Below are positions 34,209 through 48,045 of a stretch of DNA of 59,581 nucleotides, one piece after another. The stretch covers positions 1 through 59,581 of the forward strand of contig JAUSFD010000022.1 of NCBI GenBank assembly GCA_030649955.1, in the 5' to 3' direction. The notes below the pieces were generated by a model, which had not been told where the DNA came from, did no database searches, and worked only from the letters and a program-made list of their open reading frames with translations. This DNA comes from Candidatus Peregrinibacteria bacterium. GTDB taxonomy: Bacteria; Patescibacteriota; Gracilibacteria; Peribacterales; Peribacteraceae. The translations under genes were made by a program, and so were the position numbers. How positions within the stretch are numbered: position 1 is the stretch's first letter; every line of letters begins with the position of its first letter.

Positions 34209-34622
34209 TCATGCCTTCGCTTCGCCACGGTGAGCAATTGCATTGAGGACGCCGTTCACGAACTTCCCGCTCTCTGCACTTCCGTACTCCTTCGCGATTT
34301 CGATCGCCTCATCCATGACTACCGCCTGCGGCGCATCGTTCCCGAAGAGCAGCTCATACGCACCGATGAGGAGGATACTCCGCGAGATAGGATCCATCCG
34401 ATCGAGAGGCCACTCCGGAGCGTGCTGTTGCACGGCAAGCTTGAGCTCGTCCTCCCTGCCAAGGACTCCTGCGAGGAGTCCCGCTGCGAATGTCTCATCC
34501 AGTTCCCCGAGCTCCTGCTCGTTCCTCAGGAGAGACTGCTCGACATCTGCCACCGTGTGCTTCTCCCGCTCGAAGAGCGCTTGCATGACGGCGATGCGGG
34601 AAAGGTGGCGGCGGCGAGCCAT
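34209..34622 (-). CDS. nusB: transcription antitermination factor NusB
   Basis: A 137-aa all-helical protein of normal size, starting MARRRHLSRIAVMQALFERE and ending VNGVLNAIAHR, both typical. With NusE (S10, encoded nearby at 32886) it binds boxA of rRNA leaders to prevent early termination. It precedes rnc, giving a small RNA-maturation operon. Confidence 0.93.
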   Translation of the reverse strand: MARRRHLSRIAVMQALFEREKHTVADVEQSLLRNEQELGELDETFAAGLLAGVLGREDELKLAVQQHAPEWPLDRMDPISRSILLIGAYELLFGNDAPQAVVMDEAIEIAKEYGSAESGKFVNGVLNAIAHRGEAKA

Positions 34623-43053: not shown

Positions 43054-44046
43054 TCACTCATCGAGTTCGCCAACGAGGCTCCGCTCCATAATTTCCCGTA
43101 GCCTCAAGGGCGTGCGCGCCTGCGTGAGCGCCCACATGAGTTTCACCGTAGCGCACTCGAACCCCATGTTCTTGCCGGAGATGACCCCCAGCTCCTCGAT
43201 GGTGAGTTGCTTGCGGTGACGGTGGAGATCGACACCGCCGCGTAGCGACTGGGAAATGATGACAACAGGGATTCCCGCATTCTTCACTTTGCGGAGCCAC
43301 GGGAAGAGGTGTGCGGAGAGCATGCCCGGACCGTAGGCGCGCATGATGATCCCGTGAGGCTTGGAAGCGAGGATTGCCTCGAGGTACTGCTCGGAGAGCC
43401 CCGGGTGTAATGTGAGGATGATGACGTTGCTGTCGAACGTGGGGCGGCAGAGGAGCGTGCGCTTGCGGCGGACCATGCGCCACGGGTGCAGGTGGGAGTG
43501 GAGGCTGAAGTCCGCGAGCGGCGGGAAGCGCGGGGAGTCGAACGTCTGGAGGAGGGACTCATCCACCTTCTTCGCTCTGCATCCGCGAAGCACCTTGGGC
43601 CCGAGGACAATGCAGACTTCCGCAATATCCATCTGCGCAGCACGGATGGCGAAGATCATGTTCATGCGACCATCGCCAGCGAGGTCATTGATCGGCAGGA
43701 GGGCGCCCGTGAGGATGACAGGTTTGCGAAGGTTCTGGAGGGCAAAGCTCAACGCTGTCGCGGTATAGCTCATCGTGTTCGTGCCGTGGATGACCACGAA
43801 ACCCTCGAAGTCGTCGTAGATCGACTCGATCTTCTCCGCAATTTCGACCCAGAGCTGCGGAGTGACTTCCGAAGAGCCGACGTTCGCGATCGAGAAGAAC
43901 TCCAGCGCAACCTCTTTCTGGAGCTCTGGAATAAGTCTATGGATCATGCTCAAGGATTCGACGGGCTCAATGCGCCCGGTCTTCTGGTTCATCACCATCC
44001 CGATGGATCCTCCGACGTAGATGAGGGCAACCTTGGCTCTAGCCAT
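43054..44046 (-). CDS. L-asparaginase-family protein with altered active site
   Basis: A 330-aa protein of the type I asparaginase/GatD family. The first nucleophile motif TGGT reads VGGSIGM (Thr to Ser), and the second, HGTDT, reads HGTNTMSYTATAL (Asp to Asn); the Lys of RGCRAKKV and the downstream TFDSPRFPPLA are kept. It may hydrolyse asparagine weakly, use another amide, or act on peptides. The start MARAKVALIYVGG is chosen because upstream in-frame codons fall in the CCCAAAA palindrome. A TATACT box ends 21 nt upstream. Confidence 0.82.
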   Translation of the reverse strand: MARAKVALIYVGGSIGMVMNQKTGRIEPVESLSMIHRLIPELQKEVALEFFSIANVGSSEVTPQLWVEIAEKIESIYDDFEGFVVIHGTNTMSYTATALSFALQNLRKPVILTGALLPINDLAGDGRMNMIFAIRAAQMDIAEVCIVLGPKVLRGCRAKKVDESLLQTFDSPRFPPLADFSLHSHLHPWRMVRRKRTLLCRPTFDSNVIILTLHPGLSEQYLEAILASKPHGIIMRAYGPGMLSAHLFPWLRKVKNAGIPVVIISQSLRGGVDLHRHRKQLTIEELGVISGKNMGFECATVKLMWALTQARTPLRLREIMERSLVGELDE

Positions 44047-44102
44047 GGAACAGGGGGAAGTAGAGGCAGTATAGGCAAATACTAGGGGAAAACCCAAGTT
44101 AC

Positions 44103-44199
44103 AAAACCCAAAACCCAAAAAAATCCCAAAGAGAGAAGCTCCAAATTTCAAATTTGGGTTTTGCCATTTGTTTGGGATTTGGGTTTTGGGCTTTGGGAT
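44103..44199. repeat. iterated-word palindrome (CCCAAAACCCAAA type), copy 1
   Basis: The left arm aaaacccaaaacccaaaaaa and the right arm tttgggatttgggttttggg are inverses made of 'cccaaa' units; the centre contains ccaaatttcaaatttggg, itself a palindrome. It lies between the ncRNA terminator and the asparaginase start. Confidence 0.75.
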
Positions 44200-44221
44200 T
44201 TTTTCACCGTTCACCACTATC

Positions 44222-44276
44222 AAAAAACCCCGCACCTGTCTGATCTCCGCAGGAGACCAGAGTGGTACGGGGTTTT
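44222..44276 (-). terminator. terminator of the 44.2-44.8 kb RNA
   Basis: A long perfectly nested stem: aaaaccccg / cggggtttt, acc / ggt, ctg / cag, tctcc / ggaga. On the minus strand it ends in six T; on the plus strand in four T. It could also stop plus-strand transcription. Confidence 0.8.
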
Positions 44277-44791
44277 GTGCGCACCCGTGATCACGAGGAT
44301 CAGAGGAGTGAGCAGTGTGCAGTCGACTAGAACTGCATACTCCCTACCCTTCTAGCACGAGTGAGCGTGCTGCTCGTGTGTGTTTGTGTGGCGCCCGAAT
44401 GCTCGGGCATCGGCCCCCGCACTCGATGCGAGGATGGGTGTTTGTGTTTGTTGGTCCCTCCAGTGGATCACGTCACTCGAGAGCGACGTGATGGAGGGAA
44501 CCTCTAGGGCCCCCACACCACAAGGGTGCAGGGCAAGGCGGTAGTCGGCCGCGGGCAGAGGCAGGGAGGGATGAGGAGAGGCAGATCGCAGAGTGAGGAC
44601 TCCAGGTATGGAGGTTCTGCCGCCGCTCCTCATCTCTCCCTGCATTGATCACAAGAGAAAACCTTGTCGGTTTTCTCTCATGGGCTCTCTTTCCCTTCAA
44701 GGTGTCGCTCCAGGCAGGCGAAGCCTGCCTTCACGACAACTCTTCAATGGGATGTGAGCCCCCGCGTAGGGAGGGAGATATGAAAGAGCAA
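44222..44791 (-). ncRNA. structured non-coding RNA, about 570 nt, unknown family
   Basis: There is no plausible coding frame, but a full transcription unit: promoter at 44799-44827, terminator at 44222-44276 and a chain of stable hairpins on the minus strand. In transcript order: 44738-44703 (tgtcg / cgaca around ggcaggc / gcctgcc), 44677-44655 (gagaaaacc stem), a long branched stem 44643-44561 (gcagggag / ctccctgc, then gatgagga / tcctcatc, ggcag / ctgcc, ctcca / tggag), 44500-44454 (gttccctcca / tggagggac, atcacgtc / gacgtgat), 44408-44393, 44371-44354 and 44336-44319. Two AC-rich single-stranded linkers (44453-44438, 44391-44376) separate hairpins. It lacks recognisable RNase P, tmRNA, SRP or 6S motifs. 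Confidence 0.65.
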
Positions 44792-44798
44792 TCCCACC

Positions 44799-44827
44799 AT
44801 TATAGAACAAATTCTGCGAGTGCACAA
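44799..44827 (-). promoter_or_regulatory. promoter of the structured RNA
   Basis: On the minus strand, TTGTGC (44822-44827), a 17-nt spacer and TATAAT (44799-44804); predicted start near 44791. It faces away from gmk. Confidence 0.7.
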
Positions 44828-44856
44828 TGCCCAGGGATCTGCAACAATGCCCAGCC

Positions 44857-45456
44857 ATGAGCGATACACCAGCAGGGAAGCAGGGGAAACTCGTCCTCGT
44901 CATCGGCCCGAGCGGGGTGGGGAAGAGCGTGATTCTCAAGAAGTTGCGCGCGAAGCACCCCTCCCTCCACTTCCCACGCTCGGCGACGACGAGAGTGCGG
45001 CGTCCTGGTGAAGGCGATGAGCTCTACCGCTTCGTGAACGATACGGAATTCGATGCACTACTCACCAGTGAGAAGCTCCTCGAATGGGCCCAAGTCCATG
45101 GCGGTGCGCGGTACGGCACCCTCGTCGACGAGATCATCCCGCCGATTGAGCAAGGGAAGGTGGTGGTGCGCGAGGTCGATGTGCAGGGATTCGACAGCAT
45201 TCGCTCGCATGAATTCTTCTCCGGAGCGAATGCGCCCTACACCCTCGAGTCCATCTTCATCCTCCCGGAGAACAAGGAGCAGCTCATCGCGCGCATTACG
45301 AAGCGCGCACCCATCGGGGAGGACGAGCTCCAGCGCCGGGTGAAGAGTATGGAGAAAGAACTCGGGTACGCCAAGCTCTGCACCGCGAGCATCGTGAACA
45401 GGCAGGGAAAGCTCCAGGAGACGCTAGAGGAAGTAGAGCAACGGATATTCTCGTGA
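44857..45456 (+). CDS. gmk: guanylate kinase family protein
   Basis: A 199-aa protein from MSDTPAGKQGKLV; an upstream ATG at 44827 would add 10 residues. Phosphorylates GMP to GDP. P-loop GPSGVGKS, GMP-site stretch FPRSATTRVRRPGEGDELYR, then WAQVHGGARYGT and the lid IARITKRAPIGEDELQRR. The usual VSxTTRxPRPGExxGxxY is altered (ATTRVRRPGEGDELY) but recognisable. The gap upstream carries the divergent ncRNA promoter. Confidence 0.88.
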   Translation: MSDTPAGKQGKLVLVIGPSGVGKSVILKKLRAKHPSLHFPRSATTRVRRPGEGDELYRFVNDTEFDALLTSEKLLEWAQVHGGARYGTLVDEIIPPIEQGKVVVREVDVQGFDSIRSHEFFSGANAPYTLESIFILPENKEQLIARITKRAPIGEDELQRRVKSMEKELGYAKLCTASIVNRQGKLQETLEEVEQRIFS

Positions 45457-45847: not shown

Positions 45848-46582
45848 ATGAAGCTTAATGAAGACCTGAATAAACAACCTAATCTACAAGGCGATGCCGA
45901 GCGGCAGGCTGAAATGCCTGATGTGATCGAAGGTCAACGAGCAGACTACGAGGCCACTCTTGATCCTTGGGTTGCTGGTATTCGAGCTGCCGATCAAAGG
46001 AACTGGACGTTCTTGCAAGAGAAGTCGCTGCCCAGATTAGCCGCAAATCGGTGTCCTGCATTTTTTGTACAAGTGAGTGGTGGTGCAGAAAACTTTATGG
46101 ACATTCAACACCTGCTTGATGCCTACCACTCAATTGCCGACAGAGTTTCTCATATTGATCGGAAAAAAATTGTACGAACCCTCATTCGTAGGGCGGCAAA
46201 CATTGCCCCAAGCATGGCTCTTGTGATTGTGAATCGTGAGGGAAATGATCAAGATGCTCGGAGCTTTGCACAGGAAACTGTTTTTGAGGCTTTGAGATTT
46301 GGGAAAGCAAATGCGCGGCAAATTGTCGTCGAGGCTCTACAAGAACTCTTTGGCAACGACGAGCGTTTCGGAGAGGTATTGTGCATGATCGCTGGTTCAT
46401 TTCTCGATTATGGTGAATACCCTCGACTACTGTCGTTTTTGCAGAAATGGAGCAAGGGCGCAGGAGTTCCTAGATATGCGATTGAGCGGCTGCCTCTTTA
46501 CGCGGGGTGGGCGATTCACAAAGTCACAGACCGTGAGTTGCAAAGACAGTTTCAAGCACTGTCTGGCGACGAGATCGAGTAG
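45848..46582 (+). CDS. hypothetical helical protein in lower-GC patch
   Basis: A 244-aa soluble protein, mostly helical, with HEAT-like spacing in the second half (IVRTLIRRAANIAPSMALVI; ARQIVVEALQELFGNDERFG). Its third-codon positions are visibly less GC-rich than those of neighbouring genes. No known domain. First gene of a probable acquired patch running to tRNA-Ala. Confidence 0.6.
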   Translation: MKLNEDLNKQPNLQGDAERQAEMPDVIEGQRADYEATLDPWVAGIRAADQRNWTFLQEKSLPRLAANRCPAFFVQVSGGAENFMDIQHLLDAYHSIADRVSHIDRKKIVRTLIRRAANIAPSMALVIVNREGNDQDARSFAQETVFEALRFGKANARQIVVEALQELFGNDERFGEVLCMIAGSFLDYGEYPRLLSFLQKWSKGAGVPRYAIERLPLYAGWAIHKVTDRELQRQFQALSGDEIE

Positions 46583-46866: not shown

Positions 46867-48045
46867 TCACATTGGTTGAACAATCGCTTTGTCACCGTCT
46901 GCAATGATCCTCACACGTTTTGGCTGCAGCCCATCGAGGGAATCTCTCACATACGTTCCGCCCTTTATCCTTGCGCCCTTCTCACCATCAATCCCATTAC
47001 CGTTGCTGTCCAACATCAGATCTTCAAAATTTCTGCTCCTTTCCCCTAATACACTCACGTCTGCTTTTTGAATTTTCCAATAGTTCGAATGTTCTAAATT
47101 GGGGATGGCACTAAATCCGAAAGTGCTTGCGGACAAGTAGCCGCGCATACCTCTTGGCATAAAGTCGGGAATACGGCCGTCGCTTTGAGAAGTCGAGAGC
47201 AGAGCAAAATCTTCATTTGGCTGTGGCACGCTTCCGTCCTCAAATCTGGAATGAAAGACTGCAAGCTCAATTCCCTTTGCCGGAGTAACGCCAAATGCAA
47301 ATCCATTCGTGGCATCCTCTTCATCAATTGAGAAATCAGCGATTGCCTTTCGTGTGAACGCTCTCACTTGGAAAATGTATGGCAGCTCACCAGGTTCGCG
47401 ACCGAATTCCATTTGAAAGCTCAAATCATCTCTCACAAGACCGGCGGCACGAATGGCTTTATATATCTCAATAAGAGTCGGATCATTTTGTACTTCTCGG
47501 TATTGCTTGATGACATTTCCTTTTTCATCAAATAACGCAGAAGAAACATCCCGATCGTGCAGGCTGTAATCGTGAACTTCTGTCACAAAATACTTTCCAG
47601 GCTTGTTCGGATGTTCCACTATTGAACCCCTGCGGTAATCCCATGTTTTCTTTGCGTGAGGCTGCACAGCAATAACGACCTTCCCATCATAATTAGGATT
47701 CTCATACTGTCCGTATGCCATAACCTCACTGCCTGCTGCTTCATTGCGGATTAAGTTGATCGCTGCTCTCACTTGTTCGATTGATCCTTCCACAACCTCC
47801 GTTGGCAAAATATCAACAAGTCCCTGGAAATCATTTCGATGAGACCCACGCACAATATTTTTCCCACTATATGGTGAGCCCTTCCATTCTCCACCAGGCA
47901 AAATTATTTGCGTTGGAGGAAAGCGATCAGCGAGCTTCGGCACTCGTCTTTCGATAAATTTAAGTCCGCCAATCTTCCCGCCAAATTCCTCAATCTCTGG
48001 TGCAGCATTGTCGGTATAGCCAGGCTCTAAATGATTAATTGGCAC
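46867..48045 (-). CDS. PEP-synthase/PPDK N-domain-like (ATP-grasp) protein
   Basis: A 392-aa protein. The pattern resembles the ATP-binding N-terminal domain of phosphoenolpyruvate synthases: 'KNIVRGSHRNDFQGLVDILP' at the place of VRSSATAEDLxG, then 'DLSFQMEFGREPGELPYIFQ' at the place of DIEWAxDGKLYILQARP. The swivelling His domain and PEP barrel are absent. It may be a stand-alone ATP-grasp enzyme or a phosphotransferase relative. The DNA is clearly lower in GC than the surroundings. It lies beside tRNA-Ala and between 12-bp direct repeats, so it is probably acquired. Confidence 0.5.
   Translation of the reverse strand: MPINHLEPGYTDNAAPEIEEFGGKIGGLKFIERRVPKLADRFPPTQIILPGGEWKGSPYSGKNIVRGSHRNDFQGLVDILPTEVVEGSIEQVRAAINLIRNEAAGSEVMAYGQYENPNYDGKVVIAVQPHAKKTWDYRRGSIVEHPNKPGKYFVTEVHDYSLHDRDVSSALFDEKGNVIKQYREVQNDPTLIEIYKAIRAAGLVRDDLSFQMEFGREPGELPYIFQVRAFTRKAIADFSIDEEDATNGFAFGVTPAKGIELAVFHSRFEDGSVPQPNEDFALLSTSQSDGRIPDFMPRGMRGYLSASTFGFSAIPNLEHSNYWKIQKADVSVLGERSRNFEDLMLDSNGNGIDGEKGARIKGGTYVRDSLDGLQPKRVRIIADGDKAIVQPM

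Follow-up and report, generated by a model that had tools for sequence, protein, structure and literature searches.

The locus lies in a 59,581-nucleotide contig of a Candidatus Peregrinibacteria bacterium (Peribacteraceae); this whole stretch is referred to here as the window. Between a guanylate kinase gene (gmk) and an L-asparaginase gene, positions 44222-44827 contain, on the minus strand, a promoter, a boxA-like element, a series of hairpins with AC-rich linkers and an intrinsic terminator, and we consider it rather probable that together they make up the gene of a structured non-coding RNA, new and autonomous, in the Peribacteraceae, ~310-600 nt in predicted length depending on the species. 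The features are as follows.

44827..45456, plus strand: guanylate kinase gene (gmk; PF00625, E = 7.7e-23), divergent; the start may be ATG 44857
44822..44827, minus strand: -35 box TTGTGC, read directly; TTG at the same spacing in nearly all homologues
44799..44804, minus strand: -10 box TATAAT, 17 nt from the -35 box; transcript start expected near 44792
44779..44789, minus strand: boxA-like element GCTCTTTCATA, at the 5' end of the predicted transcript
44654..44735, minus strand: inserted copy of a dispersed palindromic repeat, outside the conserved RNA, between boxA and P1
44561..44643, minus strand: P1 domain, here a long hairpin
44636..44643, minus strand: 5' strand of outer P1, GCAGGGAG, pairing with CUCCCUGC
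44560..44568, minus strand: strand CUCCCUGCC, able to pair with outer P1 or with GGUAGGGAG
44538..44552, minus strand: P2 hairpin, loop CGACU at 44543-44547
44453..44502, minus strand: P3 hairpin, GGUUCCCUCC...GGAGGGACC (folding and homologues)
44436..44452, minus strand: AC-rich single-stranded linker 1, CAAACA type
44415..44433, minus strand: P4 hairpin (folding)
44393..44408, minus strand: P5 hairpin GCCCGAGCAUUCGGGC (folding and homologues)
44374..44390, minus strand: AC-rich single-stranded linker 2, nearly invariant in subgroup 1
44355..44370, minus strand: P6 hairpin (covariation)
44340..44348, minus strand: GGUAGGGAG, 3' partner of CUCCCUGCC (complementarity within the molecule)
44318..44337, minus strand: P7 hairpin, loop AGUCG at 44324-44328, contact with the P2 loop by covariation
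44222..44276, minus strand: intrinsic terminator, a long GC-rich hairpin and six T
43057..44046, minus strand: L-asparaginase gene (PF00710, E = 1.3e-51), downstream of the RNA gene

Among named asparaginases, the closest ones are 62-81% identical, most of them from Peribacteria and Peregrinibacteria assemblies, which makes the window part of a relative of Candidatus Peribacteria. At 44088-44202, in the gap that separates the asparaginase gene from the RNA terminator, lies an imperfect inverted repeat of the TTTGGGATTT/AAATCCCAAA type. Elsewhere in the window, two long ORFs of 392 and 244 aa (46867-48045, minus strand, and 45848-46582, plus strand) have no Pfam match, and ARAGORN calls a 97-nt tRNA-Ala (cgc) at 34414-34510 (minus strand) that is unconfirmed by Rfam and is probably a false or degenerate gene.

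The minus-strand promoter TTGTGC-17-TATAAT of the initial annotation is confirmed in the sequence at 44827-44799, and its long terminator with six T is likewise present at 44276-44222. A promoter scan of the window did not include this site among its calls because TTGTGC is a weak -35 box, and the recurrence of the site in ~36 homologues supports the predicted promoter better than the scan does. The motif GYTCWTT (GCTCTTT and variants) is found at the same place in 33 of 37 homologues, 6-9 nt behind the -10 box, so that the feature by which boxA-antiterminated transcripts are recognised, a boxA motif near the RNA 5' end, is found here. In rRNA operons, boxA serves the antitermination of long untranslated RNA. 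The rRNA promoter of a relative with a complete genome (G030) is followed by GCGCTCTTTGAGA at the equivalent leader position, and this genome encodes a NusB homologue. The presence of an rRNA-type boxA at the start of the RNA thus makes Nus antitermination of its transcription likely. The published boxA consensus, GYTCTTTAANA, is gamma-proteobacterial, and known boxA-led transcripts, namely rRNA operons and the suhB leader, likewise have the motif near the RNA 5' end (PMC5725501); in the present case, the RNA that it leads is short, non-coding and stand-alone, and has a terminator of its own. By itself, the pattern of promoter and boxA is not rare, as G030 has ~40 matches where ~11 turn up in a random genome; combined with an AC linker and CTCCCTG/GGTAGGG, it occurs once in that complete genome and once in the window. 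Near position 797610 of contig C1 of G030 (plus strand; L189), a strong promoter, TTGACA/TATAGT, is followed by GGCTCTTTTCACAACA, possibly marking a second boxA-led transcript.

The homologues, with estimated lengths of 309-605 nt (median 439), share a common order of elements. A TATAAT-type -10 box and boxA are followed by the P1 domain and CUCCCUGCC or a variant of it, then by P2, whose loop has the form (Y)GAC(Y), in most cases P3, an AC-rich linker and often P4 and P5 (of the CCCGAG-N-UUCGGG type), and finally by a second AC-rich linker, P6, GGUAGGGAG or a variant, P7 with a loop of the form (R)GUC(R), and the terminator. The P1 domain varies, being short in one subgroup and, in another, large and branched (GAGAAGUGAC...GUCACUUCUC); in the window, the stem at 44561-44643, previously described as four-part and branched, is predicted by folding to be a single long hairpin with internal loops. 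In P3, the window has CCCUCC/GGAGGG, L047 has CCCUCU/AGAGGG, and L008 has CCCUCA/UGAGGG. The AC-rich linkers noted earlier between the hairpins recur throughout the homologues: each of the 40 that were counted has linkers of the CAAACA type, in most cases two. The hairpins themselves are present as claimed, from sequence and folding, except that those of 44735-44654 belong to an insertion. The inserted repeat consists of two hairpins, is ~80 nt long in the window copy, and reaches up to ~10 copies per genome in many Peribacteraceae. BLAST against the family genomes returns two kinds of match, the dispersed repeat, at 80-90% identity and many per genome across the family, and true homologues in the same neighbourhood, which lack the repeat at this place.

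The 570-nt strand has a predicted folding energy of -282.9 kcal/mol against -204.4 +/- 7.5 kcal/mol in dinucleotide shuffles (z = -10.4), and the z-score without the 5' insert is -8.3. It had been stated that no ORF fits the locus, which holds, the longest on the RNA strand being 97 aa and unconserved: tblastn matched it in 3 of 39 homologous loci, against 37 for the gmk control. A small-protein gene was rejected on the lack of ORF conservation across homologous loci. As judged from sequence, the locus is a conserved RNA gene rather than a product of chance folding.

Covariation in related genomes had been named as a check in the initial annotation, and it is strong in P6, in P7, and between the loops of P2 and P7. 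For P6 and P7 in 26 sequences, 95.2% of cells are paired against 65.8% when shuffled, two-sided changes occur in 11 of 12 pairs, and the covariation score is 0.715 against 0.201 when shuffled and at most 0.126 in slid controls, in an alignment fitted to its own structure, so that these statistics lean in the structure's favour. In the same 26 sequences, P6 is paired in 96% of cells with two-sided changes in 4 of 5 pairs, and in P7 all 7 pairs show them. RNAalifold on a first MAFFT alignment, in which the hairpins were misaligned, returned no pairs. The contact between the P2 and P7 loops was first noticed by visual inspection. In a subsequent test, which used fixed 7-mers and windows on hand-picked P2 loops, 40 sequences gave a mean score of 13.2 versus 11.4 +/- 0.28, and none of 200,000 permutations was as good, the permutation tests here and below ignoring the kinship of the sequences. 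An earlier fixed-position test on 27 sequences gave 6 of 100,000 permutations as good, and the first loop-loop test, on automatically folded loops, gave 2.4%, a weak result because the folding had consumed loop bases. The loop pairs are CGACU/AGUCG in the window and L008, CGACC/GGUCG in L007, UGACC/GGUCA in L013, CCGACC/GGUCGG in L022, GCCAAC/GUUGGC in L047, and UAGACC/GGUCUA in L247. Five homologues without P7 (L149, L235, L238, L241, and L243) are also without the GAC loop of P2; in these variants, the terminator follows almost directly after an AGGGAG motif.

The loop-loop contact, the size of the RNA and its unpaired linkers recall OLE, ROOL, and GOLLD, whose complexes consist of RNA alone and contain kissing loops (PMC12286853) and which, like the RNA described here, are several hundred nucleotides long, elaborately folded, non-coding, and lineage-restricted. 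The P2-P7 contact could be intermolecular, and the RNA would then be an ornate, self-assembling homo-oligomer. We regard this as rather unlikely, however, as there is no sequence or covariance-model match to the Rfam families of OLE, ROOL, or GOLLD, and the RNA differs from them in its smaller conserved core, its boxA start, its AC-rich linkers, and the large species-specific variation in P1 and between the hairpins.

The RNA gene is present near gmk in at least 49 of 74 Peribacteraceae genomes, with one copy each where counted, a lower bound made up of 29 genomes in which a sequence profile of the 3' part of the RNA (R1) finds one match each and 20 recognised by gmk position. The latter come from 30 genomes missed by the profile, 23 of which have convincing gmk loci; in 20 of the 23, two of them truncated at a contig end, the strand opposite gmk carries the same set of promoter, boxA, and structured RNA upstream of that gene, and in the other three (L254, L256, and L257), the RNA was not found. 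Outside the family, 19 gmk neighbourhoods in other families of the class contained no such RNA, and a P6/P7 model, which also misses many true members, found none in the class beyond the Peribacteraceae. A search for phage or plasmid origin gave no match.

Since the RNA usually adjoins gmk and the asparaginase gene often follows it on the same strand, the RNA might be a cis-acting leader or attenuator of one of these genes. The arrangement of the loci makes this improbable. In the window and most of subgroup 1, gmk is divergent upstream and the asparaginase gene lies downstream; in L004 and L023, the RNA gene is inverted between the two; and in subgroup 2, both genes are upstream and divergent. 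The RNA is directed away from gmk in most loci, and its 3' end is formed by a terminator of its own that lies clear of the conserved core. The inversion between its neighbours in some genomes points to an autonomous gene rather than a leader.

With regard to known classes, the Rfam check proposed earlier returned no significant family other than tRNA: with Rfam 15 at gathering cut-offs, only tRNAs were detected in the window and 20 homologous loci, and low-threshold scans gave weak matches, mostly to microRNA hairpin models, far below cut-off. The RNA shares a housekeeping-like distribution and its size range with tmRNA, RNase P, 6S, and SRP RNAs, but the tests for these classes came out negative. 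The genome's RNase P RNA (RF00010) lies at C28:28794-29239 (119 bits) and its tmRNA (RF00023) at C20:27625-28033 (102 bits), ARAGORN finding no tmRNA at the RNA locus, and the best 6S RNA match (RF00013; 32.7 bits, below cut-off) is elsewhere, on contig C1. SRP RNA was not matched by RF00169 or RF01854 in the same genome or in 36 relatives. It was rejected as an identity for the RNA on the covariance models, on the motif in the complete genome G030, and on its protein partner: the Ffh/FtsY GTPase family (PF00448) gave no convincing match in 24 relatives, all 14 controls being found, and lacking Ffh and FtsY, an SRP RNA would have no partner. The signal recognition particle thus seems to be missing from the whole class (36 and 24 genomes searched), which fits a published remark that many CPR bacteria lack two of its subunits (PMC8080830). 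The wide occurrence in the family, the own promoter, the strong structure, and the lack of a recognised SRP RNA in the genome could each speak for a highly divergent housekeeping RNA, which had been left open as a possibility; with RNase P RNA, tmRNA, and the weak 6S match placed elsewhere and no sign of SRP, that possibility is now largely closed and appears very improbable. Pairing with the rRNA operon was rejected: although TGTGTTTGT in the rRNA leader of G030 is complementary to ACAAACACA, 9-12 nt matches to the operon are at chance level. The 3' end of the 16S rRNA on contig C1 of G030 (L210) reads ...GGATGGAACATCTCCTTACC rather than the usual GGATCACCTCCTT, so that the anti-Shine-Dalgarno core differs.

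That the locus is functionless mobile or REP-like palindrome clutter is scarcely credible: the window copy does hold a dispersed repeat and these genomes contain many palindromes, but the conserved neighbourhood, promoter and boxA speak against it, and for the conserved part it is refuted by the single copy per genome and by coordinated covariation beyond the repeat.

The initial annotation of the locus as a new structured RNA that has a promoter and a terminator of its own is therefore supported by the absence of any Rfam family at cut-off and by the strong covariation, and the open literature yielded no account of such an RNA. The predicted family is new, with no known relative, and its broad kind, that of large structured bacterial RNAs, is already known. 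The raiA-motif RNA (ModT) is likewise a conserved structured bacterial RNA (PMC11706538), from which the present one differs in having no Rfam match and in belonging to another phylum. The new family is judged to be real and probably important to its hosts. Stable RNAs common to most members of one bacterial family are few, and new ones so conserved are rare; the presence of this one in most examined Peribacteria genomes near the same gene suggests a basic function, and its covariation-backed core, clear promoter, and conserved address make it searchable in metatranscriptomes and foldable in vitro.

In the model that we favour for this autonomous RNA, it would be transcribed by a Nus-modified, antiterminated polymerase, as for rRNA, would fold with P2 and P7 docked via their loops, and would probably act in trans as a stable RNA. 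Most likely, it would serve as a ribonucleoprotein scaffold whose AC linkers are putative docking sites for proteins. A more far-reaching proposal, which we put forward only tentatively and hold to be doubtful as a whole, is that it represents a new, probably essential class of housekeeping RNA confined to Peribacteria, with rRNA-type antitermination and a two-helix switch, serving a core process in cells that seemingly lack SRP.

The switch, which may operate between outer P1 and the GGUAGGGAG helix, is the weakest part of the favoured model. The strand CUCCCUGCC has two complementary partners, GCAGGGAG on the 5' side, with which it would form outer P1, and GGUAGGGAG close to the 3' end. A two-state fold is therefore possible, in which the RNA may alternate between a ground state (outer P1) and a closed state (the GGUAGGGAG helix). 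When complementarity within molecules was compared with that between molecules, 15 of 100,000 permutations were as good for outer P1 and 41 of 100,000 for the CUCCCUGCC-GGUAGGGAG pairing. By nearest-neighbour energies, outer P1 is favoured over the alternative helix in most homologues, by a median of 8 kcal/mol, so that the latter would have to be assisted by a protein or by the docking of P2 with P7. The 3' partner is AAGACAGGGAG against CUCUCUGUCUU in L241, GAACAGGGA against UCCCUGUUC in L250, and CAGAGAG against CUCUCUG in L247.
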